DNA from: Aerococcus sp.
Lineage (GTDB): Bacteria > Bacillota > Bacilli > Lactobacillales > Aerococcaceae
Reading direction: 5' to 3'
DNA: 64,000 bases
Assembly: GCA_030528285.1 (NCBI GenBank)
Contig: JAUMZE010000001.1
Coordinates: 310,001 to 374,000 of the forward strand
The translations under genes were made by a program, and so were the position numbers. The notes beneath the pieces were generated by a model that did not search any database, was not told the DNA's origin, and was given only the letters and a program-made list of their open reading frames with translations. This document shows positions 1-28,210 of the stretch, piece by piece. Within the stretch, counting starts at the first letter, position 1, and each line of letters begins with the position of its first letter.

Positions 1-456
1 ATGATCGAAGAAGTTCTCGATATTATTAAGTCCTTTTTCACTCGTGATTTTCACAACGAGATCGCGTCCTAGAATCCGCGCTAGATAAAAGCACAAGCAC
101 GCTGCTACCATGGCACTGAACCAGGATAATAACGCCCCTTGCCACCAGCCGAAGAGATTCGCATTCGCAATCGTAATCAGAAAAGCGGGCAGTGGCGCGA
201 TGATCGATTGCATAATCATTAATAAGAATGAAATAAGGGCCGCATAAGCACCGTACGAACCAATAAAATCATGCACCGCTTGGAAGTTCCCGGTGGTAAA
301 CATATAGATGATATGATTCATCATATTACGCAGTGGAGGCACTACCCCGTAGAGAATCAATAATACGACCACCACACCGATTAAGACCCAGCGCTTTTTA
401 CGGTAGTTTTCGGTGTTCGCTGCTTGTTGCTGTCTGTTCGGTGGCATTGCTTTCAT
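1..456 (-). CDS. TVP38/TMEM64 (DedA-like) family membrane protein, 3' end outside window
   Basis: This frame is open from the ATG at 456 to the left edge (152 codons, no stop), so the C-terminus is missing. The N-terminus is basic and Gln-rich, followed by a hydrophobic helix at about residues 23-43. The TVP38/SNARE-associated core then begins with the pattern MQSIIAPLPAFLITIANA and a Gly-rich GWWQGALLSW segment. Family members are polytopic inner-membrane proteins with suspected roles in lipid scrambling or transport, and the substrate here is unknown. A strong GGAGGAGGA lies just upstream; the ATG at 447 is an equally good start. It is the last visible gene of a minus-strand set with a rhodanese lipoprotein and a selenoprotein, which suggests a membrane component of a selenium or sulfur process (inference). 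Confidence 0.85.
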   Translation of the reverse strand, partial: MKAMPPNRQQQAANTENYRKKRWVLIGVVVVLLILYGVVPPLRNMMNHIIYMFTTGNFQAVHDFIGSYGAYAALISFLLMIMQSIIAPLPAFLITIANANLFGWWQGALLSWFSAMVAACLCFYLARILGRDLVVKITSEKGLNNIENFFDH

Positions 457-574
457 TCCTCCTCCAATCAACAAAAATAGGGATGAACGATCTATCCGTC
501 ACTATCATCAGTTAAAAAGTGCGTGACTGCCTCATTTCATCGGATGATCACTTCATCCCCATTCATTATTTCAT

Positions 575-1318
575 TTAATCTTTTACTAATTCGAAGTCGT
601 GTTCTTTCGTTCCATCATTGGAGTTATAGACGTTACTCCAGCCTTCATCGACCAATTTTTGAGCCGCTTTGTAGGATTTATTTCCGGAGTAGCAATATGT
701 CATCACCGGTTTATCTTTTGGCACCTGTTTAATTTCTTCATCGAGATTCTTCACATCGATGCGTTTAGCGCCCATCAAGTGGCCCGCTTCATAATCTTTT
801 TCATCACGAGCATCTAAGATTGTATAGTCACCGGAGTCAGCTGCTTTTTGGAGCGCATCCCCAATCACAAATTGAACTTTGGTGGTGACGGTATATTGAT
901 GATCTTTGATACCTTCTGCGTTCGATACTTTGTTGAAGCCTTTATCTACGAGTTTCTTCGCTACTACTTCACTCTTATCTTTGGAGTCCGCAATCGTTAC
1001 GATGTCTTTATCCTTGTAGTCGTTTAAGGTATCAGCTTTTGAATCAATATCCGCTTCAGGAATATTAACTGCATATTTCACGGTGCCTTCCTTGTATTCG
1101 TCGCTTGGGCGGACATCAATCACGAGATAGTTCTCTTTTTGCTTCGTGTCTTCCAAAATCTTATCGAGATTCTCACCCGTCATTTCAGAAACAGTGCCCG
1201 GTTTCGCATCACTCTGCGTCGTATTTTGGCCGCAAGCACTCAGCGTAAAAATGGTCAGTGCACTCAATGCTGCTGTCGCTAAACGTTTCATCATACTCGA
1301 TTGCTTTGTCATTTCCAT
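575..1318 (-). CDS. Lipoprotein with tandem rhodanese domains
   Basis: The protein has 247 aa. It begins with a lipoprotein signal peptide: a basic KR, a hydrophobic stretch and the lipobox LSAC with Cys29. Two rhodanese-like domains follow, at about residues 45-140 and 145-245. The first lacks a catalytic Cys (VTIADSKDKS at the expected loop). The second has an active-site loop TYCYSGNKS with Cys209, so only the second should carry a persulfide or perselenide. It would be anchored on the outer face of the membrane. The start is preceded by AAAGAGG. The gene overlaps the end of the upstream selenoprotein gene by about 10 nt, implying translational coupling. A role in sulfur or selenium transfer to or from the partner proteins is inferred from context. 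Confidence 0.9.
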   Translation of the reverse strand: MEMTKQSSMMKRLATAALSALTIFTLSACGQNTTQSDAKPGTVSEMTGENLDKILEDTKQKENYLVIDVRPSDEYKEGTVKYAVNIPEADIDSKADTLNDYKDKDIVTIADSKDKSEVVAKKLVDKGFNKVSNAEGIKDHQYTVTTKVQFVIGDALQKAADSGDYTILDARDEKDYEAGHLMGAKRIDVKNLDEEIKQVPKDKPVMTYCYSGNKSYKAAQKLVDEGWSNVYNSNDGTKEHDFELVKD

Positions 1319-2034
1319 TTTACAACCTCTTCCTTTCCTCCATTAACAGCCAACGCTAATAATTTTTTAACTGCTTCCGTTTGCATACGACGATCGTGGG
1401 GTTCCTCTGAGAAGGTTTGCCCCAATGGATATGGTGTCACCATGACACGAGGGGGACGTACTTTCTTGATAACATTGGTTAAATGAATCATCGCGGCGGT
1501 ACGAATCCCACGACTCTCAATCTTTCTTTGCATTAATCCCACGGACTGATGACAAATATATCAGCCAGGTGATAATAAAACGATATCGACATGATCTTCT
1601 AATAACATATCCGCCATCATTGGAGCGGTTTTCTTCATTAATTTTGCCGTGCGTGGAATATAACCCATCCAGCCAAAATGTCGGGGTGCGACACTGCCAA
1701 TGACGCCCTCACTTTGAAGTTCTCTCAGTCTTTCGAGCGGGAAGACGATATTAATATCTTCTTTCGCACGTTTCGTATTATAATGATCGTGGTTCACCAC
1801 CAACGTTTGAAAGTCGACATCCCCATCGATCACACGAAAGGTCGGATCCCCCTTCTTCGTATCAAAGGGAGGATCCGTTGCATTGCGAATCCCCGCTGTT
1901 GTCACGAGGGCCACTCTGGCTTCATTCAGAGGCTTTTCCAGCGTCGCAACAGGTGGTTCCTCATCAATCGTAATCACCATATGCTCGGCTACTTTTCCGA
2001 TCACACTCTGCTCTAAACGTTTAATAAATGGCAT
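1309..2034 (-). CDS. Selenoprotein of the GrdB/PrdB (glycine/sarcosine/betaine/D-proline reductase) family, Sec158
   Basis: Two open frames are joined in phase by a single TGA at 1561-1563, giving a 241-aa protein if that codon is selenocysteine. The residues around it read LLSPG-Sec-YICHQSVG. This matches the short GrdB/PrdB-like family, in which many members have Cys at this site followed by xxCHQ. The downstream part stays homologous (SRGIRTAAM, RPPRVMVTPYPLGQ), so the TGA is not a true stop. The start has AGGAGG six bases upstream and overlaps the end of the DUF2064 gene by 22 nt. A 12-bp hairpin with a GUG loop begins a few bases after the UGA (separate entry). The family catalyses reductive cleavage or redox chemistry at a Sec/Cys. 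The substrate is unknown, and the gene is not part of a D-proline reductase operon. Confidence 0.9.
1527..1556 (-). promoter_or_regulatory. Candidate bacterial SECIS hairpin of the GrdB-like selenoprotein
   Basis: Counting from the first base after the UGA, TTTG(5-8) pairs with CAAA(31-34), CAT(10-12) with ATG(28-30), and AGTCC(14-18) with GGATT(22-26). The three-base loop GTG sits at 19-21. Distance to the loop and a G at the loop start fit the loose bacterial SECIS rules. The pairing was worked out by eye. Confidence 0.6.
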
Positions 2035-3563
2035 CTCCCGCCTCCTCTATACCCCAATAGCTCGTCAAAATAGCGTTCAATCATCGTTAAAAATTCATCG
2101 CTCAAGTAGTTTTTAATGACCTTGTACGTCGCTTGACTCTGGGCTACTTTGGTTTGAGATTGGTACTGTACATAGGCCATCGCACACCACGTCAATCCTC
2201 TCAAACAGGTAAAGAGAAGATACTGTGTGAGTTTGTCCTCATCAATGGCAACCTCACTCTTAGCGTTGTAGGCGACTACAAACTGCTGGATCCCCATTCG
2301 ATCATACAGATAATCCGTCTTCCAGCGTGTGGTCGTTGGTGCGAGAAAATGTCCCAGATCCTGTTCACGCTCGCCAATCAATGGTTTCTCCCAGTCGATG
2401 ATATAGGAGTCGCTCGCATCATGATTGATCAGGAAGTTACTGCTGTTTAACTCCGTATTAATGATGCAGGGATGTTCAAGCGGCTGGTCTAGGGCAAAAA
2501 TTCCGAGACGGTCGAGCAGGTTTTGAATGCGTTGTTCAACGTGCAGGTCCCTCTGATCCCACTCTTGATATACCCGAAACATCGTATGGAATTCATCCAT
2601 CATCACTTGAAAGGGTTGATCTGCCAAAATCAGCTCTGGACAGTTTGAGCGCGGTACCTGATGCACCCGAGCGAGTAATTTGGCCGCATTCGCACTGTCT
2701 GTTCGATAATCGAGCGGACGTCCCGGGAGATAATCCTCCACAAGATAGCCCGCATGGATTAATGGTTCATCCTCCACTAACTGACGCGGAATCGGCGTCA
2801 CCTGGCTCTCCTGTAATCCCTCAAGTGCGTGATATTCATAGGCGATCTGGTGCGCTAGATGGAGTTGTGACCCTAACGCAATCCGTAGCAACCGCGTTCC
2901 GTTGTGAAAACGGAAATTCGCATTGTATTCCCCCTGCGCCAGAAAGGTTGCGTCCTCGTCTTTGGTAAGGACACGCGCAATATCTTCTTTGGTATCGATG
3001 TCATGGATACGTGGGAGCACGTGCACCTGTAAATGCGCTTGGGAGGCTTTTGTGATTACTTTTCGATAGACAGACTGCCCGCCATACCCCGAAATCTCGA
3101 ATAAGGACGGGGTTGACTGTTTCCAGCCAATCAAGCCGTACCCACCATCATAGGTTGGTGCGAGTACAATATCCTCATAATCTAAGGCGCGAAAGGCTTC
3201 TGTGAGATGATCCGTGGACAAATCATAGAGGTCGGTTCCCATCAAAACGACCTTGTCATAACCAGCTAATTGAGCCTGATCCATCGCATATGCCATCCGT
3301 TGACCGAGATCCCCCTCGATTTGGCGATGCACCGTGACACAGGATGGATCATAATCGAGATAATCCGCTAAGGTCTTGGACTCATCTCTACTGGTGACCC
3401 AAAACTGGATATCATAGGGCAGTTCACTCACTGCTTGATAATTCTTCGTTAATAAGTATTGACTCAGCTGTTGAATAGCTCTGGGGTCGAGAAAATCACG
3501 GAGTCGACTCTTTGTTTCACCTTGAATCGGTAGCCGTGTAAAAATGATAACGACATTTTTCAC
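2013..3563 (-). CDS. DUF2064/TIGR04282-like nucleotidyl- or glycosyltransferase fused to an APH-like phosphotransferase domain
   Basis: The protein has 516 aa from a GTG start with GAGAGGGGGA upstream; a GTG 33 bases further upstream has no comparable RBS. Residues 1-200 are a GT-A-like domain of the DUF2064/TIGR04282 type: FTRLPIQGETKSRL near residue 8, then MGTDLYDL and YDGGYGLIGW. TIGR04282 proteins are named for an association with arsenosugar gene sets. Residues about 215-500 resemble aminoglycoside/choline-kinase phosphotransferases. The usual HGDxxxxN catalytic loop reads NTELNSSN, while the metal-binding motif is kept as IDWEKP, followed by QDLGHFLAP. The catalytic Asp is therefore replaced by Glu, or the domain may not be a kinase. 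It overlaps the selenoprotein gene by 22 nt, so the two are probably co-translated. Function is unknown. Confidence 0.8.
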   Translation of the reverse strand: MKNVVIIFTRLPIQGETKSRLRDFLDPRAIQQLSQYLLTKNYQAVSELPYDIQFWVTSRDESKTLADYLDYDPSCVTVHRQIEGDLGQRMAYAMDQAQLAGYDKVVLMGTDLYDLSTDHLTEAFRALDYEDIVLAPTYDGGYGLIGWKQSTPSLFEISGYGGQSVYRKVITKASQAHLQVHVLPRIHDIDTKEDIARVLTKDEDATFLAQGEYNANFRFHNGTRLLRIALGSQLHLAHQIAYEYHALEGLQESQVTPIPRQLVEDEPLIHAGYLVEDYLPGRPLDYRTDSANAAKLLARVHQVPRSNCPELILADQPFQVMMDEFHTMFRVYQEWDQRDLHVEQRIQNLLDRLGIFALDQPLEHPCIINTELNSSNFLINHDASDSYIIDWEKPLIGEREQDLGHFLAPTTTRWKTDYLYDRMGIQQFVVAYNAKSEVAIDEDKLTQYLLFTCLRGLTWCAMAYVQYQSQTKVAQSQATYKVIKNYLSDEFLTMIERYFDELLGYRGGGRCHLLNV

Positions 3564-3787: not shown

Positions 3788-5218
3788 TCAATGTGAATAC
3801 TGGTTTTTCTGCTCGATTGCCTTCAGATATTGTGCAATAACTCTCATGTCCTCAGATAACAATGTCCGCACATCAAATTGCACATGATCCTCGTTGATCC
3901 GTGCAATGATATGATGCGGACCGAGTCTTAACGCCTGCTCTAATTCCGAGGTCGAACATTGATCTGACGTCAGAGAGACGAGGGCAGTCGGTAGATACGT
4001 TCCTGGATAGGATCCACCACCGATCTGGGAGCGCCCACCAATTACCGCTACATGATAACTTGTCGTCTCGCGTTCAATCATACCCTGTAACATTTCCGCT
4101 TGCTTCTGGAGCGTGTCTATCTCTTGACTCAGCATGCGCAAGGTCGGGATCTTCTGCATCGCATAGTCAGGATTCAAATAGAAGGTCAGCGTCTTCTCTA
4201 AGGCCGCAATCGTAAATTTATCCACCCTGAGCGCGCGCAGGAGCGGATGTTTCTTCAGTTTTTGGATGTAGGCTTTCTTACCAACAATGATGCCTGCCTG
4301 CGGACCTCCAAGCAATTTATCGCCACTGAAACTTACCACGTCATAGCCGGCAACGAGTGATTCCGAAACGGTTGGTTCTGCGGGCAAACCGAGATGTTCA
4401 AGATTGATCAATAGCCCGCTCCCCAAGTCCTTGAAGGCAGGCAGATCATTCGCGTGGGCGAGAGAGACCACCTCACTATCCGGCACCATTTTATGAAAAC
4501 CGACAATCCGGTAATTACTGGTGTGTACCCGTAGTAGTGCTCCCGTTTCTGGAGTGATTGCCCGCTCAAAATCTTTGAGGTGCGTTTTATTGGTGGCCCC
4601 GACCTCTCTCAACACGGCACCGGCACTCTGAATGACATCTGGAATCCGGAATGAATCGCCAATCTCCACCAACTCACCGCGAGAAATCAAAATCTCGCTC
4701 CCTGCTGGTATGAGTGCCGTCAAATAGAGCATGACGGCCGCCGCATTGTTGTTCACGACGAGGACATCCTCTGCCCCGGTGAGTTCCTTGATAATCTCTG
4801 TCAGATGGGTGTAACGGCTCCCTCGCTCTCCCTTATCGAGATCATATTCGAGGTTGTTGTAGTGCTTCGCTACCTTAAGCATCGCATCCACCGCTTCATC
4901 CGCGAGTAAGGCCCGTCCCAAATTCGTGTGGAGCACGGTTCCCGTCGCGTTGATGCATTCCTTTAGGGTCATACTTCCCAGTGCTTGGAGTTTATTGGTG
5001 GTCTTTTCGGCGAGTGTGTCTGGATCAATCAATACGGTTTCACCGCGTAGGATCAATTGACGCGTCTCATTCAATACTTGCTGGACTTGCTGCTTGATGC
5101 GTTCATGGTTGATCGTTTGACTCCACGCTTGAATTTCAGGGCGTGAGAGGATCTCGTCCACAGACGGCAACTGGCGCAACTTGTTTTGGATTTCCGGACT
5201 AATATTTTTCTTACTCAT
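3788..5218 (-). CDS. selA: L-seryl-tRNA(Sec) selenium transferase
   Basis: The protein has 476 aa, the normal length. SelA is a PLP enzyme that converts seryl-tRNA(Sec) to selenocysteyl-tRNA(Sec) using selenophosphate. The PLP lysine is Lys301 in SFSGDKLLGGPQAG. The family hallmarks INATGTVLHTNLGRA (about 90-103), GERGSRYTH and VNNNAAAV are present. The ATG start lies inside the end of selB, overlapping by 8 nt, so the two are translationally coupled. About 220 bp separate its stop from the DUF2064 gene, so that module may have its own promoter. Confidence 0.97.
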   Translation of the reverse strand: MSKKNISPEIQNKLRQLPSVDEILSRPEIQAWSQTINHERIKQQVQQVLNETRQLILRGETVLIDPDTLAEKTTNKLQALGSMTLKECINATGTVLHTNLGRALLADEAVDAMLKVAKHYNNLEYDLDKGERGSRYTHLTEIIKELTGAEDVLVVNNNAAAVMLYLTALIPAGSEILISRGELVEIGDSFRIPDVIQSAGAVLREVGATNKTHLKDFERAITPETGALLRVHTSNYRIVGFHKMVPDSEVVSLAHANDLPAFKDLGSGLLINLEHLGLPAEPTVSESLVAGYDVVSFSGDKLLGGPQAGIIVGKKAYIQKLKKHPLLRALRVDKFTIAALEKTLTFYLNPDYAMQKIPTLRMLSQEIDTLQKQAEMLQGMIERETTSYHVAVIGGRSQIGGGSYPGTYLPTALVSLTSDQCSTSELEQALRLGPHHIIARINEDHVQFDVRTLLSEDMRVIAQYLKAIEQKNQYSH

Positions 5219-7097
5219 GTTTCAACACCCTCACATCACCGACCCGTTTCGTCAGACCAATCGCATCTAAATGTTCGAGGAAGGCCATTCCGTACTTCCG
5301 ACTCGTTTCCCAAGCATCGCGGAATTCACCGAGAGACAGTTCCCCATGTTCATTAATGTAATCCACCACGAAATGCTTGGCTGCTTCATAGACACTCATA
5401 TGGACATAGACATTTCGATCTAATTGGAAAATCTCACTACCCATCATGGAGTTAAATAATTCCTCTAGATGTTCATCCCCATGTGTGAGTGCGTCTTTTT
5501 CAGGTGGAGTCATTTTGGCGTCCTTGAGTGTTTGCTCCATGGCATCTCGTTCCATTTGACTCTTAGAATCTAACTGATAGGTGAAATCATACAGACGCGC
5601 CCGCCCGTATTCAATCGCAATCTGTTGGTCCTCACGCAGCTGTTTAAGGAGACGGTCCAGTTCCTTGGCACTCACATTCTTGAATTTGCTGCGAAGCTCC
5701 TCCAGTGGCATACCCTGGCGCACCGGATATTGCGCATGATAGGTCTCTAAGAGGGAGAGAATCTCTTTCTTGAACTCATTAAATTTTTGAACCGACATAT
5801 ATTGATGTCCAAAGACCAGTAATTCGTGCTCTTGGGTCAAAGTCTCAATCGCTTCGTCGACTTGTTGCTGTTCGACATTCAGGTATTGCATCATTTCTTT
5901 CTTACTGGTGAGGGCACTGCTACGCCGATTGAGGAAGTCAAGTAGGATCTGAGCTAGGTCACCCGTTTCCTTGACTTGGAGGGTATGAATCACCTCTTCA
6001 TTGAAACGTTTATGCTTCTCAGGTTCTTCCTCGAGAATCGTCCCGCCACCCACTGTATAAACCGGCGAATACGAACGCAGGATGAAATGATCGCCTTTCT
6101 TCACGTGAACCTGCTCTTCAAGACGCAGCTGCAGATACCCCGAATCTCCCTGAACAATTTTTTCCTTATCGATCGGGACAATTCGTGCGAGTACCTCCGC
6201 CGCCCCGACATGCACGTGGACGCGATCCCACAGTTCCAAGGCATATGGCGACTCAGGCAGACACTCTACCTTCACATCCAGCATGTAGGAGTCCTCCAGT
6301 GGGACGCCGCTCAAAACAGTCCCTCGCTCCATCTCCTCCACCGTCACATTGGTCAGATTCAGCGCGGTTCGATTCCCAGGAAAGGCCTGTTTTTGGTCTT
6401 TGTTGTGGATTTGGATATTACGGATCTTGGTTTTCTTGTTATATGGATAGGCATAGAGTTCATCTCCCACTGATAATGGTCCATCCACGAGTGTCCCGGT
6501 TACCACTGTCCCGAATCCTTTCACTGAGAAGGCACGATCCACATTCAACCGCGGTGGGAGGTCGCTCTCCTTCTCCGTGAGATGGCTGAGTTTGTCTTGG
6601 ATTGTTTGCTTAAGTTCCTCAATGCCTGTCCCGCTCACTGCGTCCGTTTCGACAATGGGGGCGTCTGCCAGTGGGGTATTTCGGAACCGCTCCTGAATAT
6701 CCTCATAGATAATTTCTTTCAGTTCAGGGTCCGCATCATCCACCTTGGTGAGAACGATGATGTAATTCTCCACGCCCAATAACCGCAAAATCGAGGAATG
6801 CTCAATCGTCTGTGGCATGATGCCCTCGTTCACGTCAATCACGAGGAGCACGAGATCGATACTGGCAACCCCTGCCAACATATTCTTCACGAAACGTTCA
6901 TGGCCTGGAACATCTACAATCCCGACCTCTTCTCCATCTGGCAAGGTCATAAAGGTGAACCCCAGATTAATCGTCAGTCCGCGTTCCTTCTCCTCACGCG
7001 TGGTGTCTGTATCCACCCCTGATAACGCCTTGATGAGGGTTGTTTTCCCATGGTCGACGTGCCCCGCAGTTCCAATTACAAAATTTGATTTCTTCAT
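5211..7097 (-). CDS. selB: Selenocysteine-specific elongation factor SelB
   Basis: The protein has 628 aa. SelB delivers Sec-tRNA(Sec) to UGA codons that carry a SECIS hairpin. The N-terminal EF-Tu-like GTPase shows GTAGHVDHGKTTL (G1), DVPGHERF (G3) and LTKVDDAD (G4). Beta-barrel domains II/III follow to about residue 340, with VDRAFSVKGFGTVVTGT. Winged-helix repeats fill the C-terminal 270 residues and bind SECIS RNA. The chosen ATG (MKKSNF) has GGAGG seven bases upstream and starts 2 bp after the DUF3343 stop. A start six codons earlier would overlap that gene and has no good RBS. The gene is in an operon with selA. Confidence 0.97.
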   Translation of the reverse strand: MKKSNFVIGTAGHVDHGKTTLIKALSGVDTDTTREEKERGLTINLGFTFMTLPDGEEVGIVDVPGHERFVKNMLAGVASIDLVLLVIDVNEGIMPQTIEHSSILRLLGVENYIIVLTKVDDADPELKEIIYEDIQERFRNTPLADAPIVETDAVSGTGIEELKQTIQDKLSHLTEKESDLPPRLNVDRAFSVKGFGTVVTGTLVDGPLSVGDELYAYPYNKKTKIRNIQIHNKDQKQAFPGNRTALNLTNVTVEEMERGTVLSGVPLEDSYMLDVKVECLPESPYALELWDRVHVHVGAAEVLARIVPIDKEKIVQGDSGYLQLRLEEQVHVKKGDHFILRSYSPVYTVGGGTILEEEPEKHKRFNEEVIHTLQVKETGDLAQILLDFLNRRSSALTSKKEMMQYLNVEQQQVDEAIETLTQEHELLVFGHQYMSVQKFNEFKKEILSLLETYHAQYPVRQGMPLEELRSKFKNVSAKELDRLLKQLREDQQIAIEYGRARLYDFTYQLDSKSQMERDAMEQTLKDAKMTPPEKDALTHGDEHLEELFNSMMGSEIFQLDRNVYVHMSVYEAAKHFVVDYINEHGELSLGEFRDAWETSRKYGMAFLEHLDAIGLTKRVGDVRVLKHE

Positions 7098-7099
7098 TC

Positions 7100-7375
7100 C
7101 TACGCCTCCCTCCACTCTTTGATGAGTTCATAGTTCTTCTTGTGCGTGTCTGTATCTTCATGGATCCGGTAGGCCTTGAGGGGTTCTAATTCCTCTGATT
7201 GAAAAGTAGCTACTAATGCCTCCATGAGGGATTCATCTGCCTTGAGTCCGAGCCCACATCCTGCTGAAATGGCACCAGGGATAGGAATGAGACGTGCTTG
7301 GTAGCCATGATTTTTGACAATCTGCTCACTCTCCATCGCCTTATGCACCCCTTGAAAAATCATAATAATTTCCAT
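7100..7375 (-). CDS. DUF3343-domain protein associated with selenium metabolism
   Basis: A 91-aa protein with IMIFQGVHKAMESEQIV at the N-terminus and the conserved PIPGAISAGCGLGLK containing a single Cys. DUF3343 proteins recur in selenium-utilising bacteria beside selD, yedF and selAB. They are suspected to bind or pass on a selenium or sulfur intermediate, but no reaction is established. GGAGG lies five bases before the ATG at 7375. The gene sits between a hairpin (7387-7423) and selB. Its Cys in a Gly-rich loop makes a carrier role plausible (inference). Confidence 0.85.
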   Translation of the reverse strand: MEIIMIFQGVHKAMESEQIVKNHGYQARLIPIPGAISAGCGLGLKADESLMEALVATFQSEELEPLKAYRIHEDTDTHKKNYELIKEWREA

Positions 7376-7386
7376 CCGGTCCTCCA

Positions 7387-7423
7387 TTCGAAAACAAGGC
7401 TAGGACATCCCCAGCCTTGTTTT
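7387..7423 (-). terminator. Hairpin between yedF and the DUF3343-selB-selA genes
   Basis: AAAACAAGGCT pairs with AGCCTTGTTTT around a loop of about 13 bases, ending in TTTT on the minus strand. It would partly terminate the selD-yedF transcript ahead of the DUF3343 gene, or protect mRNA ends. Readthrough seems likely because no clear promoter follows. Confidence 0.55.
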
Positions 7424-7464: not shown

Positions 7465-8058
7465 TTATGGTTTCACGATGCGGTTTGCTTGACGTAAGGT
7501 CTCAATAATCGCATACATGTTCGTTACGGACCCAACCGCAATTTCATCGGTCAGATCATAATAATCGGCACAGAGACCACATGTCGCAATCACAACACCT
7601 GCTTCTTCCATCTTCTTCAGGTCTTCCAGAGAATCGGAATCCTTCGTGGTGAGGAAAGCCCCAGAGTTATAGAAGAGAATCGTCGTTGGCAGGACGTCTT
7701 GTTCAGAGAGAGCATAGAGGAAGCTCTTCATGAGGTTCTTTCCGAGTTGTTCGTCACCACTCCCCATCTTGTTAGAGTCAATTTGAACGATATATTCATC
7801 CGAGGAAACAACTTGACCTTGCATTGCAGGCGAGGTTCCATGGGCATGTTCCCCTTTCTTGATGCTGACTTGGTAGTGGCCCGCTTCACCCTTTTCATGA
7901 GAGTAGTCATATTGCAATTGCTTAGCCATTTTTTCGAGATTTTGAACGGAAATCTCATTATCAACGAGGACTTCTACTTCATTGTCCTCGCGCAATGCTT
8001 TTTTAGCTTCGATTACGGGAATGGGACATGCTTTACCTAATACATCGACTTTTTTCAT
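7465..8058 (-). CDS. yedF: Selenium metabolism protein YedF (TusA-like plus DsrE-like domains)
   Basis: The protein has 197 aa. The N-terminal 75 residues are TusA/SirA-like with the CPxP motif (GKACPIPVIEAKKAL, Cys11), the persulfide or perselenide carrier site. The C-terminal half is DsrE/F-like and ends with CGLCADYYDL, a second thiol pair. YedF proteins with both domains are markers of selenium users and probably deliver reduced selenium to selenophosphate synthetase; the exact step is not proven. AAAGGAG precedes the ATG. The gene lies 34 bp downstream of selD in the same orientation. Confidence 0.93.
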   Translation of the reverse strand: MKKVDVLGKACPIPVIEAKKALREDNEVEVLVDNEISVQNLEKMAKQLQYDYSHEKGEAGHYQVSIKKGEHAHGTSPAMQGQVVSSDEYIVQIDSNKMGSGDEQLGKNLMKSFLYALSEQDVLPTTILFYNSGAFLTTKDSDSLEDLKKMEEAGVVIATCGLCADYYDLTDEIAVGSVTNMYAIIETLRQANRIVKP

Positions 8059-8092: not shown

Positions 8093-9136
8093 TTAACTGA
8101 TATAAATCGCTCGGTCACGTTTCTCAACCACGTGACCGATCAAGTGGGCATCCATCTTGTCGGATTCATTCAAGGCCGTGACGAGTGCCTCTGCTTCCTC
8201 TGGGTCCACACTGATGAGCAGTCCCCCTGAGGTTTGCGGATCGTAGAAGATTTCCTCCATGGCATAATCATCGAAATCGAACTGGACGTCTTGTTCGAGA
8301 TAATTACGGTTCTTCTGCCCGCCGGCTGTCACGAGGAATTCGCGCGCACACTCATAAGCTTTGGGGATAAATGGCACGTCCTTAACATTGATTTGTGCAG
8401 AGAATTTCCCATGGAGCATTTCATTCAAATGCCCCAGTAACCCAAAGCCCGTCACATCGGTACAGCTATGAACATGGAAAGATTTCATAATGTCCGCTGC
8501 ATATTTATTCAGCGTCGTCATCGCCCGCACCGCTTGCTGGAAGGCCTCCTCGCTCGCCTCACTCACACTGTAGGCCGTCGTTACAATCCCTACGCCCAGC
8601 GGTTTCGTTAGGATCAGTGCATCGCCTGCTTCGGCTGTATCATTCTTGATGATCTTGTCAGGATGGACGCGCCCAGACACAGATAGACCATATTTCGGGG
8701 TGGACGCATTAATACTGTGCCCTCCTGAAAGCGTGGCCCCCGCCTCATGAACGGCATCCGCGCCTCCTTCCAAGATGCGTTTGAGCACGTTTAAATTCTT
8801 CTCTTCGGGGTACATCACGATATTCAAAGCGGTGAAGACCTCCCCGCCCATCGCGTAAATATCACTCATCGCATTTGTCGCCGCAATCCGCCCGAACAGA
8901 TATGGATCGGCTACCATCGTTGGGAAGAAATCCACACTCTGGATCAATGCGACATCATCCGTTATTTTGTAGACAGATGCATCATCCGCCGAGTCAAATC
9001 CTACCAACAGATTCCCATCGCGTTTGGGTGGTTTCGGTAAATCGGCGAGAATTTCGGAAAGATAGCCAGCACCGATTTTGGCATTACATCCACCACAAAT
9101 GACCAAACGATCCGCTGCTACTTTTTCTTCTGTCAT
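8093..9136 (-). CDS. selD: Selenide, water dikinase (selenophosphate synthetase)
   Basis: The protein has 347 aa. It makes monoselenophosphate from selenide and ATP for SelA. With the start at the ATG at 9136 (AAGGAAG upstream), the active-site motif is CGGCNAKI with Cys17 and Lys20, the same numbers as the Cys and Lys of E. coli SelD. This is a Cys form, not a Sec form. The Asp-rich ATP/metal sites GFDSADDASVYK and the AIR-synthase-like GGHSINAS motif are visible. A weaker upstream start at 9163 would add nine residues. The gene opens the selD-yedF pair. Its 5' region contains the 30-bp tandem repeats. Confidence 0.96.
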   Translation of the reverse strand: MTEEKVAADRLVICGGCNAKIGAGYLSEILADLPKPPKRDGNLLVGFDSADDASVYKITDDVALIQSVDFFPTMVADPYLFGRIAATNAMSDIYAMGGEVFTALNIVMYPEEKNLNVLKRILEGGADAVHEAGATLSGGHSINASTPKYGLSVSGRVHPDKIIKNDTAEAGDALILTKPLGVGIVTTAYSVSEASEEAFQQAVRAMTTLNKYAADIMKSFHVHSCTDVTGFGLLGHLNEMLHGKFSAQINVKDVPFIPKAYECAREFLVTAGGQKNRNYLEQDVQFDFDDYAMEEIFYDPQTSGGLLISVDPEEAEALVTALNESDKMDAHLIGHVVEKRDRAIYIS

Positions 9137-9261
9137 TTCGTCACTTCCTTCTTTGTGAAACACTTTTCAATCATAAGTGTAACACAAGTATTTTGTTTGC
9201 GCTAACATGGGAGATTCATTCCCATGTGTTGTTACCACTCTTATTTTACCACGGTTTTGGG

Positions 9262-9429: not shown

Positions 9430-10249
9430 TTAGTGGTTTAAATGGAAGAGGTCCGTCCGTTCAACCCCTTTTTCGCAGAGGGCAAAGTAATTAGTGCGGC
9501 CTGGGATCCATTTCTTCAAGACTTCTAAATCCATCATTACTTTGTGTTTTGGATTGTTGTAGTCCATTTTTTCGAGGGTTTCTTCCCATTGTTTCTTGAG
9601 ATCATCTGAAAAATGTGGACGTGTGGTGAAGATACAGTGGTCATAGAGGCCAGTCTTATCAGTAATCTTGATTTCTTTTTCGTTGATCGTACCATCCTGT
9701 ACCCATTCGTCGTAGTTCCCTTCTGTGGTGACTGACACATCGACATCACCGGCTTTGAGGGCGTCAAGGGCGAGATGTTCTCCACCGACATGGTCCCTAT
9801 CAAAACCGAGGTCTTTATCGAAGGTCACTTCTTTGTAGTCGTGATCGAGATCTAACCCTTTTTTCGAGGAGGTCGGCAATTGGAACAAGACGAGCTTGTG
9901 GAGAATCCACAGCACCGAACCCGATTGTTTTGCCACGAAAATCTTCCACAGAGTTAATCCCGCTACCGGTCTTCACGAGGTAGACACTGCGACGATTTTG
10001 GTCCGTATCGCGCATGTCGCTGTAACCCACTTCATCAGATTTGAGGGTAGCTTCCACGTGAGCCAATGGTGAGTTCCACGCAATATCAATTTCTTCATCT
10101 AAGAGCGTTTGAACTTGGGCACGGTAATCTTTGAAATACACCATCTCGAGCGGTAAGCCTCCATTCGCGAAGAAATCGGAAATAATATCCCAAACGACTG
10201 TGACTGGAGGAGCATAAACAACAGCACCGACTTTGATTGTTTCTGACAT
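9430..10249 (-). pseudogene. PhnD-like periplasmic-type substrate-binding protein, frameshifted
   Basis: An ATG at 10249 with AAGGAG upstream opens MSETIKVGAVVYAPPV and continues with family patterns (FKDYRAQVQTLL, AWNSPLAHVEA, DFRGKTIGFGAVDSPQA) to about 9862. There a run of six A residues before GGG shifts the frame. The rest continues in another frame (KGLDLDHDYKEVTFDKDLG, GDVDVSVTTEGNYDEW) to the stop at 9430. One extra A explains the break. The fold is that of phosphate/phosphonate ABC binding proteins (COG3221-like). No signal peptide or lipobox is visible and no permease or ATPase is adjacent, so the parent protein may not have been a transporter part. A homopolymer sequencing error remains possible. 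Confidence 0.75.
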
Positions 10250-10287
10250 AATGGACTCCTTTACTTTTATCAAATAAAAATTAACTA

Positions 10288-10994
10288 TCGATCCAAGCAA
10301 TGGGAGCAGCTGGATACTTCAAATTATCGATTCCAAATGAATTAGGCGGTCAAGGCGGTAATATCAGTGATCATGCGGAGGTCTGCCGTGCCTTTGCTGA
10401 AGCCAGTCCAACTGCCGGACTCTGCTACATGATGCATAACACCGCGCTCATGTGTGTCCTCGTCAATGGTTCTGATACCCTGATCCAAGAAATTACCCAA
10501 GATATCGTGAATAACCAGCACTTCATGGCGTTGGCCTATAGCGAATCGGGTACCGGTACTCACTTCTACAAGCCAGAACTCGAAGTAGACATCCAAGGCG
10601 ACAATGAAGGCTTCACCGACAAGAAGAGCATGGTCCCCTCAGCCGGCAATGCTCATTACTACCTGATTCTCACCCCAAGCGCAACCAACGAAGGCATTAA
10701 TAACTGGGTCGTTCCCGCTGACACACCAGGCATTACCTTCAAACAAGAATACTGGAACGGGATGGGGATGCAGACGCGCTCCTACGTATCCTCTCCGCTC
10801 GTATTCCCGCCAGCGAAAATGTAATGGCGATGGGTCAAATTGCCATGCGGATCGGTGGCGGACGTATCTATAATCAATACTTGAACATTGAACGCCTCTT
10901 CCGTGATGCTTATGCGAGTGAAGTAATGGCGCCTTCTGTGGATGTCCTCACCATTTGTCTCGGTAAAGCAGTGACCGGTTTACCGATTCCATAG
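10288..10994 (+). pseudogene. Acyl-CoA dehydrogenase-like remnant (truncated, frameshifted, internally deleted)
   Basis: On the plus strand, divergent from the PhnD-like wreck. The first piece reads AMGAAGYFKLSIPNELGGQG and runs through the flavin-binding beta domain (LAYSESGTGTHF) to about 10808, where the frame breaks. A second piece in another frame starts at IPASENVMAMGQ. It jumps directly to the family C-terminus (MRIGGGRIYNQYLNIERLFR, then GKAVTGLPIP), so about 100 residues of the C-terminal helical domain are missing. The N-terminus also lacks the usual first helices and has no RBS. It is a clear relic. The original substrate cannot be told. Confidence 0.85.
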
Positions 10995-12481: not shown

Positions 12482-13768
12482 TTAGACACCTTTAGCGGAT
12501 TGAACGTTGAATCCGAGCTCATTGGTTGCCCCTGTAATCGCTTGGATTTCAACTTCAATTTCACCATTCTCTTGAAGACTGCCGTCGTGTCCACCAGCAA
12601 TCACATCTACATAATCATACATACCGATCAATTTGTCCATGGCTGGCAAAGTGATCACTTCATTGGCGTTCCCACCGGTGACACAGGCATCTGCCAATTT
12701 GTCCGCATCGGCGAGGGATTGACTCGCACCATCTTGTCCAGCATATTCGTCAGTCACAATCACGGTATCAATATTCTTCTTCTCGATCTTGGTGCAGTTC
12801 ATGATCAAGTCCGTATCTGGGTTACCGAACCCTTCCTGTGTGATCACAACCCCATCGAGGCCCAAGAACTCCGCTAATTGAGAGGACATGTTACTGGAGC
12901 GCTGTTTGTCTGCCAAGTAAACGGTCTCGTTGGTAACAATCACACCCACAAAGTTCAGATCTTTCCCGTGACGGTCATACAGATCCTTGATAACTGGGTT
13001 GTTCAAATGGTGATAGGTGGTGTTCTTATCACAAGCAGACACACAGTTCCCGCTGATTACAGCCCCATCCATCACTTCTGTAGGATAGATCAAGGTGGGA
13101 ACGATATGTTTCACGTCTGTCCCATAGAGATAGGAGTCGTGCAACAGCCCTTGCGTTTGGAGCATGTAAACATAACCAATCTTCGGCAGGTCTGGATATT
13201 CAGCGATTTGTTCGAGATAAGGTTTGGTTTCATAGGTTTCAACCGTATCTGGTTCTACTTGTTCACCGAGTTTTCCGATTAAGGTCGCTACTTTCAGCCC
13301 AGCCATCCGCACGGCTTCTTCATAGGTATGGGTTTCAAGATCTGTGACTGGGTCTACCACTAAGCAGATGTTGATGGTCTTGGAGAATGGGGTTAATTCT
13401 GCCCCAGGACCGGACATATCAACAATCCCTTCTTGGAACCCAACAATTTTACCAACCGTTGCCACCGTGCAGCCTTTGAGCGCATGAGTCCGGCCAGAAC
13501 CGACTGTTATCATTTTACTGATCACACCAGGGAAAACACCTGCTTCACTGTCCACCTTGCAGCGTGGTTCAATGAAGTCTTTCACTGGGGTGATACGGGT
13601 CTTATCTCCTGGGAAGGCCAATTCAACTTTACAACTTGCGATACGGTCATCATCGAGCACCGTATCGATAATTTCTTGTTCATTAATATACAGCGTGCCG
13701 TTTTCCACTTTGGCTTCATCGGAAAATTTTACATCTGTGATATTAATTTTACCTAATTCCAGTTTCAA
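12482..13768 (-). CDS. grdE: Glycine reductase component B, pyruvoyl subunit precursor
   Basis: The protein has 428 aa from a TTG start (MKLELGKINITDV), with GAGGTGA five bases upstream. The open frame continues further upstream without homology or RBS. GrdE is a proprotein that self-cleaves to alpha and beta chains and makes the pyruvoyl group that binds glycine as a Schiff base. The cleavage site SGNCVSACDKNTTYHH is present with Cys242, the residue known from characterised GrdE. It pairs with GrdB, whose gene follows 26 bp downstream, and grdX lies 32 bp upstream. Length and motifs are complete, so it should be functional. Confidence 0.95.
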   Translation of the reverse strand: MKLELGKINITDVKFSDEAKVENGTLYINEQEIIDTVLDDDRIASCKVELAFPGDKTRITPVKDFIEPRCKVDSEAGVFPGVISKMITVGSGRTHALKGCTVATVGKIVGFQEGIVDMSGPGAELTPFSKTINICLVVDPVTDLETHTYEEAVRMAGLKVATLIGKLGEQVEPDTVETYETKPYLEQIAEYPDLPKIGYVYMLQTQGLLHDSYLYGTDVKHIVPTLIYPTEVMDGAVISGNCVSACDKNTTYHHLNNPVIKDLYDRHGKDLNFVGVIVTNETVYLADKQRSSNMSSQLAEFLGLDGVVITQEGFGNPDTDLIMNCTKIEKKNIDTVIVTDEYAGQDGASQSLADADKLADACVTGGNANEVITLPAMDKLIGMYDYVDVIAGGHDGSLQENGEIEVEIQAITGATNELGFNVQSAKGV

Positions 13769-13800
13769 AAATATCACCTCTACATCTTTATGACTCTTCT

Positions 13801-14196
13801 CTACAAGAAAGAAGGTGGGACATTTATTCGATTTAATGCACTCGTCACCAAATCGTAATCGATCAAAGCAAAGTCTTGAAGGACACGGTCTGTCCAATTA
13901 GGTGTGGCCCGCATTGCTTGGAAACGATGATAGACTTCGATAGCGTGATCAATCATATCCAAATTCTCCATTGAGATAGCCCCATGGTATTCATCTAACA
14001 GGATGATTGACTTATAAATAGTTTCATTCGGTTTAATACTCCCGCTTAGTGGATGAGTAACTAAATGATATCTATCATCAACCAGATGCTGGCGCACTCT
14101 ATTGAGCACATCGAGATAACTCCCATCGATAAATTCGATCGGGATCTTGATCTCTGCCGTCTCCCTCACTTTGGGATTATTTGTGATTAATAACAT
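13801..14196 (-). CDS. grdX: GrdX family protein
   Basis: A 131-aa protein starting MLLITNNPKVRE, with TTGAGG shortly upstream of the ATG. GrdX proteins occur only with glycine, sarcosine or betaine reductase genes. The biochemical function is unknown; it is sometimes assumed to be regulatory or an accessory factor. Typical features here are the HPLSGSIKPNET motif and the Asp/Tyr-rich C-terminus. It starts the grdX-grdE-grdB subset. About 200 bp of upstream DNA has room for its own promoter, for example TTGACC with a TTTAAG 17 bases later (weak). Confidence 0.88.
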   Translation of the reverse strand: MLLITNNPKVRETAEIKIPIEFIDGSYLDVLNRVRQHLVDDRYHLVTHPLSGSIKPNETIYKSIILLDEYHGAISMENLDMIDHAIEVYHRFQAMRATPNWTDRVLQDFALIDYDLVTSALNRINVPPSFL

Positions 14197-28113: not shown

Positions 28114-28210
28114 TGGCGGGAACGTGTGAGAATCGAACTCACCCAAGAAGCTCTTAACTCCTCATACTGGTTTTGAAGACCAGAGGGAACACCAGAACCC
28201 ATCCGCTCCC
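28114..28210 (-). tRNA. selC: tRNA-Sec(UCA)
   Basis: A 97-nt tRNA with encoded CCA. Acceptor GGGAGCG pairs with CGTTCCC. The anticodon stem is CTGGT/ACCAG with loop CTTCAAA, anticodon TCA at 28174-28176. The long variable arm (about 20 nt) and T-arm GTGAG-TTCGATT-CTCAC are standard for bacterial selenocysteine tRNA. It is needed for the three UGA-containing genes at 1309, 11160 and 20294. Confidence 0.95.

Follow-up and report, generated by a model that had tools for sequence, protein, structure and literature searches.

A cluster of about 14 genes, four of which lie on the minus strand at the start of a 64,000-nt stretch of an Aerococcus genome (G000:C12:310001-374000, called the window throughout; the genome is 1.62 Mb and 85% complete), encodes a predicted selenoprotein of the GrdB/PrdB family together with two glycosyltransferases, TIGR04282 and TIGR04283, which NCBIfam names as a pair "arsenosugar biosynthesis glycosyltransferase". 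The cluster is real, conserved and larger than was first noted, and it is not a new kind of system. We tentatively read these genes as an Aerococcaceae variant of the TIGR04282/TIGR04283 cluster in which salvage replaces or accompanies synthesis. Two points appear to be new: the place of the selenoprotein in an arsenosugar-type cluster, and the tie between such clusters and an operon of Escherichia coli K-12.

Gene content and co-occurrence of the cluster

The joint occurrence of these genes across genomes is not a matter of chance. Among 76 Aerococcaceae genomes, the profile of the PrdB-like selenoprotein (E ≤ 1e-25) and TIGR04282 (over cut-off) select the identical nine, for which the chance probability is 1/C(76,9) = 7e-12 if shared ancestry is ignored. 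The nine belong to 3 of 21 genera and include 3 of the 15 genomes of the window's genus. In a set of 60 relatives that includes the window's own genome, TIGR04283 is over cut-off in five (the window's, G001, G011, G030, and G032), and a PrdB-like protein of this clade is present in the same five. SelB is over cut-off in nine of the 60, all five module genomes among them, so the module is nested in genomes that use selenocysteine (Sec). The genes for the TIGR04282 fusion, the selenoprotein, the rhodanese, and the TVP38 protein lie near each other in all nine genomes (tblastn, fetched surroundings), which bears out the initial annotation's grouping of these four families. The association is one-sided: the lack of co-occurrence that would have spoken against the grouping was not seen for the selenoprotein, which accompanies TIGR04282 in all nine genomes, but the other three families have partners without it.

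In the window, the fusion gene (2013..3563, minus strand, GTG start at 3563, stop at 2013) has profile matches to DUF2064 and APH. The DUF2064-phosphotransferase fusion described earlier is genuine, as its TIGR04282 domain scores 168.6 bits (cut-off 134) and is accompanied by an APH domain. The following three genes are on the same strand. The fusion gene overlaps by 22 nt (2013-2034) the selenoprotein gene (1309..2034, ATG at 2034, stop at 1311-1309, 241 aa), which in turn overlaps by 10 nt (1309-1318) the gene of a double-rhodanese lipoprotein (575..1318) that, as read from its sequence, has an active-site-loop Cys in the second domain only. The gene of a TVP38/VTT (DedA-type) membrane protein, truncated by the window edge (1..474, with 474 or 456 as its start), begins 100-118 nt further on without overlap. 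The reported head-to-tail order with three overlapping genes is thus correct for the window, but the rhodanese gene has the reverse orientation in all five genomes from genus g17.

The four genes that had been taken for a module are a set cut by the window edge, which falls inside the cluster; the count of about 14 is reached once the 17 kb around that edge (L002), which hold the rest, are added. There, the complete TVP38 gene (TVP1, 250 aa, L002:11722-12474, same strand as the window genes) is followed on that strand by the gene of a second TVP38 protein. The TIGR04283 glycosyltransferase scores 220.1 bits against a cut-off of 182, and the nearest solved relative of the rhodanese lipoprotein is E. 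coli YnjE (2wlr, E 8e-65). The same strand also carries genes for a 142-aa protein without a family match and for a YnjBCD-type ABC importer; with NF008633, the binding protein of the importer reaches 439 bits (cut-off 203). We take NF008633/PRK11622 to be the YnjB family; E. coli YnjB itself gives a match at E 4e-61. The set is completed by genes for a nucleoside hydrolase of the IU type, a rhodanese of 304 aa, a TDT-like protein, and a NupC-type transporter. The TDT-like gene closing the cluster (L002:1999-2913) carries in-frame stop codons, and its counterpart in G011 (L021:4715-5683) is an open frame. Across the nine genomes, the nucleoside hydrolase is found in eight clusters (none was seen in G032's 18-kb contig) and the YnjBCD importer in six (the window's genome, G011, G030, G462, G463, and G464).

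Several protein families of the cluster could be examined at the level of residues. The first domain of the fusion is of the CofC-like nucleotidyl/glycosyl transferase type, with PDB 3cgx among the supporting matches. Residues conserved in at least 29 of 34 TIGR04282 sequences include K29, R31, G120, D122, D150, G151, G152, D199, and D201 (numbered from the 527-aa frame). By profile, the nearest solved relatives of the APH domain are spectinomycin phosphotransferase (E 1e-6) and one protein of the aminoglycoside phosphotransferase family. In the cluster nucleoside hydrolases, the metal site D-x-D-...-D-D is lengthened by about seven inserted residues (all six that were aligned, of ten found), which are missing from a G001 paralogue encoded outside the cluster.

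The PrdB-like selenoprotein

The selenoprotein belongs to the GrdB/PrdB family and has its putative Sec in a UxxC motif, in the same alignment column as PrdB. The in-frame UGA (1563-1561, minus strand) is at the same position in all nine orthologues and one paralogue, and selA, selB, selD, and tRNA-Sec are all in the window; the conserved UGA and the Sec machinery together predict a bacterial selenoprotein. A candidate Sec insertion sequence (SECIS) stem-loop of 5 pairs with a 3-nt loop starts 13 nt past the UGA (1535..1547, minus strand), and its signals are weak: the stem is kept in 10/10 sequences (100% paired), but control shuffles matched this in 190 of 500, and the candidate gave no Rfam match, no covariation beyond shuffles, and no excess synonymous conservation.

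The protein is distinct from PrdB in sequence. It has the motif SPGUYICHQSVG in 9/9 orthologues, where the PrdB counterpart is TAGUGTCHR[ST]A, and it scores 156.5 bits (E 8e-46) against the PrdB model TIGR04483, for which the cut-off is 300. In a tree of 35 rows (4 longer rows were left out, and several others are long-branched and of unsure placement), the nine orthologues and one G001 paralogue form a clade (100/100) apart from 16 PrdBs (100/100). A relative 78% identical to the window protein is present in a metagenome-assembled genome named Aerococcus sp., and no PDB relative of the family was found by sequence at E 0.01.

No partner of a D-proline reductase was found in the fetched surroundings of the gene. 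We searched with PrdA, PrdC, PrdD, PrdE, and PrdF by tblastn, with two true prd clusters as the positive control. PrdC, PrdD, and PrdF had no match in the window or in the fetched surroundings of the nine genomes, to which the PrdA search was also limited. PrdA and PrdE gave only 27-29% matches (window 12761-13213, and G011), and these fall inside a glycine-reductase gene (12482-13897), about 11 kb away, and its G011 counterpart. The initial observation that there is no D-proline reductase or second substrate subunit therefore finds support in the nine genomes. A true D-proline reductase was considered and rejected on the TIGR04483 score, the separate clade, and the lack of PrdA beside the gene.

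The phylum search gave 30 PrdB-like loci: 19 in which PrdA is adjacent or fused to the PrdB-like protein, the window itself, and 10 that lack PrdA in the locus and carry motifs other than SPGUYICHQSVG. Around these PrdA-less proteins (10 matches from 9 Bacillota genomes; a single protein has 413 aa), no TIGR04282 locus was present in the fetched flanks, some of which are short; G294 and G439 do have TIGR04282, but on other contigs. PrdA-less selenoproteins of the PxUPICNQSVG and VPVUPICQQSGG types are at L091:9698-10462, L092, L093, and L094-L097; by eye, L093, L094, and L096 are near MerR-type regulators. G001 also encodes a second PrdB-like selenoprotein (SPGUFMCHQSVG, L025:4140-4982), whose gene is some 22 kb away from the module and adjoins a TDT/SLAC1-like gene.

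The selenoprotein gene is followed in each of the five g17 genomes by genes for a DsbD-like and a thioredoxin-like protein (in G462, ArsS intervenes), and by eye a more distant relative of the selenoprotein in G294 also has a DsbD/CcdA-like neighbour. A redox task for the selenoprotein would fit these neighbours; the initial annotation's labels for the selenoprotein and the rhodanese lipoprotein, Sec redox enzyme and extracellular chalcogen carrier, name putative roles.

Related clusters in Bacillota and the E. coli ydjXYZ-ynjABCDE operon

To place the cluster in a wider context, we used a phylum set of 398 genomes. TIGR04282 is over cut-off in 27, the window's included, and reaches E ≤ 1e-25 in 30. 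The surroundings of the 29 non-Aerococcaceae genomes were fetched; three are below the cut-off, and five of the stretches are taken from contigs shorter than 11 kb. Clustering of open reading frames (ORFs) from 34 genomes (these 29 and five Aerococcaceae) gave TIGR04283-like proteins in 30, TVP38 in 25, rhodanese in 18, ArsS-like proteins in 16, and YnjB-like proteins in 8. The core of glycosyltransferases, TVP38, and rhodanese is thus seen in Bacillota (29 loci) without the selenoprotein. Since this core is known without it and the glycosyltransferase pair already has a name, the genes are a variant of a known cluster type, and the suggestion that they form an undescribed system does not hold for the whole. 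The selenoprotein is a lineage-specific addition, because none of the 29 loci carries a PrdB-like match. Among the papers listed, none has a title or abstract opening that describes this combination of genes; a mention in the Haft selenoprotein-neighbourhood papers is possible.

The clusters have a synthesis form with ArsS and an apparent import form with YnjBCD and a kinase. At the strict cut-off, ArsS is in 11 and YnjBCD in 5 of the 29 loci, never together. A separate APH kinase gene directly follows TIGR04282 in 6 of the 29; these are the five YnjBCD loci, which place ABC genes, GT2, TIGR04282, and APH head to tail, and G192, which has a nucleoside hydrolase. APH is accordingly tied to YnjBCD or nucleoside hydrolase (Fisher p 2e-6 for 29 loci, ignoring ancestry). 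A remote radical-SAM relative is found in three more loci (G206, G220, and G270), of which only that of G206 was scored (75 vs. 300 bits). A BioB-like radical SAM protein is encoded in four TIGR04282 loci (L144:8907-9923, L151:8955-9884, L153:11512-12552, and L155:8803-9801) that have no ArsS over cut-off; two of the four proteins were scanned. It is perhaps another route to a modified sugar.

ArsS has been described as adenosylating arsenic in arsenosugar synthesis (PMC12159101). Within Aerococcaceae, ArsS (TIGR04167) is over cut-off inside three of the nine clusters: G001, G032, and G462 (336.7 vs. 300 bits in G462). For G461-G464 it was sought within the fetched surroundings; importer and ArsS occur together in the G462 cluster, and both are absent from the 38 kb fetched for G461. 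In the ArsS of G032, the motif GSSUGG includes an in-frame TGA at a position that is Cys in G001 and G462, and the G032 cluster also encodes TIGR04169, "arsenosugar biosynthesis-associated peroxidase-like", over cut-off. ArsM is over cut-off, with an in-frame TGA, in G030, G462, and G464, where it shares a contig with the module and is separated from the selenoprotein gene by 7-19 kb. Its place in G462 is between selD and the module. The G030 ArsM gene (L028:15401-16186), with the motif GTUVAG at its UGA, adjoins selD. G001, G032, and G461 have only a below-cut-off ArsM homologue of about 360 aa elsewhere in the genome. The case for arsenic is good for some members of the group; the window's own genome has no ArsS or ArsM match.

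The import form resembles an operon of E. coli K-12, ydjX-ydjY-ydjZ-ynjA-ynjB-ynjC-ynjD-ynjE (L195:2402-9775), of which ydjXYZ-ynjABCD and ynjE are described as FNR-activated (PMC3688515). Sequence identity is 52% between YdjZ and TVP1, 41% between YnjE and the rhodanese lipoprotein, and 34% between YnjB and the binding protein of the window cluster (39% for that of G439). By phmmer (E ≤ 1e-4) against 732 ORFs from the 38 module genomes, homologues were found for YdjX in 29, YdjY in 9, YdjZ in 29, YnjB in 11, YnjC in 11, YnjD in 17, and YnjE in 18 genomes, where some TVP38 genes are matched by both YdjX and YdjZ, YnjD is a generic ABC ATPase, and the YnjC matches are weak (best 4e-14). Seven of the eight gene families of the operon are therefore represented in TIGR04282/TIGR04283 loci of Bacillota; YnjA and the flanking xthA, ynjF, nudG, and ynjH have no homologue among the 732 ORFs. 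The YdjY domain is over cut-off in G030, and none was seen in the window genome's own cluster. Unlike the window cluster, the E. coli stretch has no glycosyltransferase, kinase, nucleoside hydrolase, or selenoprotein. The comparison ties a long-unexplained operon to organoarsenical-type clusters, and makes it testable with defined compounds in a laboratory strain.

Comparison with other described systems gives partial likenesses. ArsM/ArsS arsenosugar clusters share both glycosyltransferases over cut-off, the TVP38 and rhodanese partners, and, in three of nine Aerococcaceae clusters, ArsS; the window cluster differs in adding the PrdB-like selenoprotein, the APH fusion, the nucleoside hydrolase, and the YnjBCD importer, and neither ArsS nor ArsM was found in its genome. 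With PrdB (TIGR04483) and GrdB it shares the family and the Sec in UxxC, but not the motif, the clade, or the company of PrdC, PrdD, PrdF, or an adjacent PrdA. The selenoneine enzyme SenB, a Se-glycosyltransferase, likewise ties a glycosyltransferase to selenium metabolism, but is presumably of a different glycosyltransferase family from those of the cluster. SAO and Tso operons also have selenoproteins in organo-element or rhodanese/DsbD contexts, as far as described in PMC13188914. The window proteins have no TsoB-type fusion (NF045694, 30.6 bits vs. a cut-off of 805), the cluster's ABC ATPase is not SaoA (170 bits vs. 360), and TVP1 is far below the cut-off of the UptA model.

Proposed pathway, alternatives, and neighbouring genes

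From the observed gene content, co-occurrence, family membership, and conserved UGA, we infer a substrate, an order of steps, a direction of import, and all catalytic roles as follows. The starting compound would be a nucleoside with a modified 5-deoxyribose, in the arsenic case 5'-deoxy-5'-dimethylarsinoyl-adenosine. It could be made inside the cell by ArsM and ArsS, both of which are near the module in G462, or else taken up by the YnjBCD-type importer that six of the nine genomes, including the window's, encode. The nucleoside hydrolase would strip the base, the APH-like domain would phosphorylate the released sugar, the TIGR04282 domain would activate it with a nucleotide, and the TIGR04283 enzyme would pass it on to an acceptor, either a small molecule or a lipid. 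The two proteins of the TVP38/DedA type may then carry a lipid-linked product across the membrane, and the lipoprotein rhodaneses and the PrdB-like Sec protein may maintain the arsenic or chalcogen centre in a reduced or thiolated state. A lipid-linked product is suggested by the DedA-type proteins in the cluster, together with the known isoprenoyl and phospholipid arsenosugars (PMC7345539); some DedA proteins are reported to be undecaprenyl-phosphate flippases (PMC10127716). The pathway for a selenium, sulfur, or arsenic compound proposed in the initial annotation was in the right neighbourhood, that of a Se/S/As sugar, but its glycosyltransferases are a named family pair already tied to arsenosugar synthesis. 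In a more specific version, which we consider quite unlikely, the whole would be a hitherto unrecognised pathway of anaerobic salvage for nucleosides or sugars with arsenic (or selenium/sulfur) at C5: YnjBCD would import the compound, a modified nucleoside hydrolase and the kinase would release and activate the sugar, the glycosyltransferase pair would attach it to a lipid again, and the stand-alone PrdB-like selenoenzyme, together with the lipoprotein rhodaneses, would reduce or thiolate the element. The E. coli operon would be the uptake half of this pathway.

Several results weigh against an arsenosugar-type variant. No ArsS was found in the window's genome or in G011 (95% complete), and no ArsM match at 1e-20 in either of these or in G463, so nothing in the window's genome or G011 points directly to arsenic. 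ArsM was searched for in module genomes only, and its link to the module is thus uncontrolled. The PrdB-like protein, absent from 29 of 29 non-Aerococcaceae loci, does not belong to the core chemistry. In 11/11 sequences of the APH domain, the H-x-D of active kinases is replaced by N-T-E, which makes kinase activity uncertain. A recognised nucleoside hydrolase is present in only 10 of 38 loci, and nucleoside phosphorylase (PF01048) has matches in 34/34 genomes, none of them, by the listed places, in the cluster stretch. We had predicted that ArsS-type loci would carry a purine nucleoside phosphorylase instead of the kinase, and dropped this, there being no PF01048 in any locus. The opposition of ArsS and importer has p 0.03 across 38 loci, 0.13 outside and 0.23 within Aerococcaceae; strict exclusivity held in the first five genomes and was broken by G462, leaving a tendency only.

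The same enzymes might act on selenium or sulfur, making or salvaging a seleno- or thio-sugar, with the neighbouring Sec genes supplying or using selenium, an explanation we regard as possible but doubtful. The cluster is directly behind selD-yedF-DUF3343-selB-selA in the window and G011. Of the nine genomes, these two have the module in such a position; in four others, the distance between selD and the nucleoside hydrolase gene of the module is roughly 3-9 kb (G461, G462, and G463) or roughly 17 kb (G030). The chalcogen-themed partners (rhodaneses and the g17 DsbD-like/thioredoxin-like pair), the TDT-like transporters nearby (weak, below cut-off), and the lack of an ArsS or ArsM match in the window's genome would also suit selenium or sulfur. 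However, the selenoprotein's need for Sec accounts for the proximity of selD, and in the G001 and G032 drafts SelB is on a separate contig from the module. ArsS, ArsM, and TIGR04169 are arsenic-linked families, and TIGR04282 occurs without the selenoprotein in 29 other Bacillota loci.

It is also conceivable, although unlikely, that YnjBCD, YdjX/YdjZ, and YnjE form an independent anaerobic unit for uptake and detoxification of a sulfur compound, as in E. coli, with the glycosyltransferases only loosely connected. E. coli, one of 14 control genomes, has the FNR-activated operon (PMC3688515) and no TIGR04282 match at 1e-25 or 1e-15. On the other hand, homologues of YdjZ and YnjB are found in 29 and 11 of 38 TIGR04282 loci and those of the four flanking genes in none, and the five YnjBCD loci outside Aerococcaceae have the ABC and glycosyltransferase genes in one head-to-tail row. 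Very unlikely is a PrdB/GrdB-type energy reductase of an amino-acid-like compound, unrelated to its neighbours and with a pyruvoyl partner that could be elsewhere. The Sec in UxxC, the E-value against the PrdB model, and the window's glycine reductase operon with GrdB, in which the gene at 12482-13897 is the only PrdA-like match of the window, would allow this, but the bit score is about half the cut-off, the clade is separate, no PrdA is beside the gene, and the PrdB-like protein co-occurs strictly with TIGR04282. That co-occurrence counts for the reading as an Aerococcaceae variant of the arsenosugar-type cluster, as do the two glycosyltransferases over cut-off, the ArsS, ArsM, and TIGR04169 matches in some members, the association of APH with YnjBCD or the nucleoside hydrolase, and the insertion in the nucleoside hydrolases.

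The Sec genes of the window are all on the minus strand, in the order selD (8093..9163), yedF (7465..8058), the DUF3343 (Se_S_carrier) protein gene (7100..7387), selB (5211..7115), and selA (3788..5218), followed by the fusion, selenoprotein, rhodanese lipoprotein, and TVP38 genes; tRNA-Sec is at 28118..28210, also on the minus strand. Beside selD (9430-10300, minus strand, and 10300-10824, plus strand), a substrate-binding-protein-like gene that is split over two frames (by eye) adjoins a short acyl-CoA-dehydrogenase-like frame (by eye).

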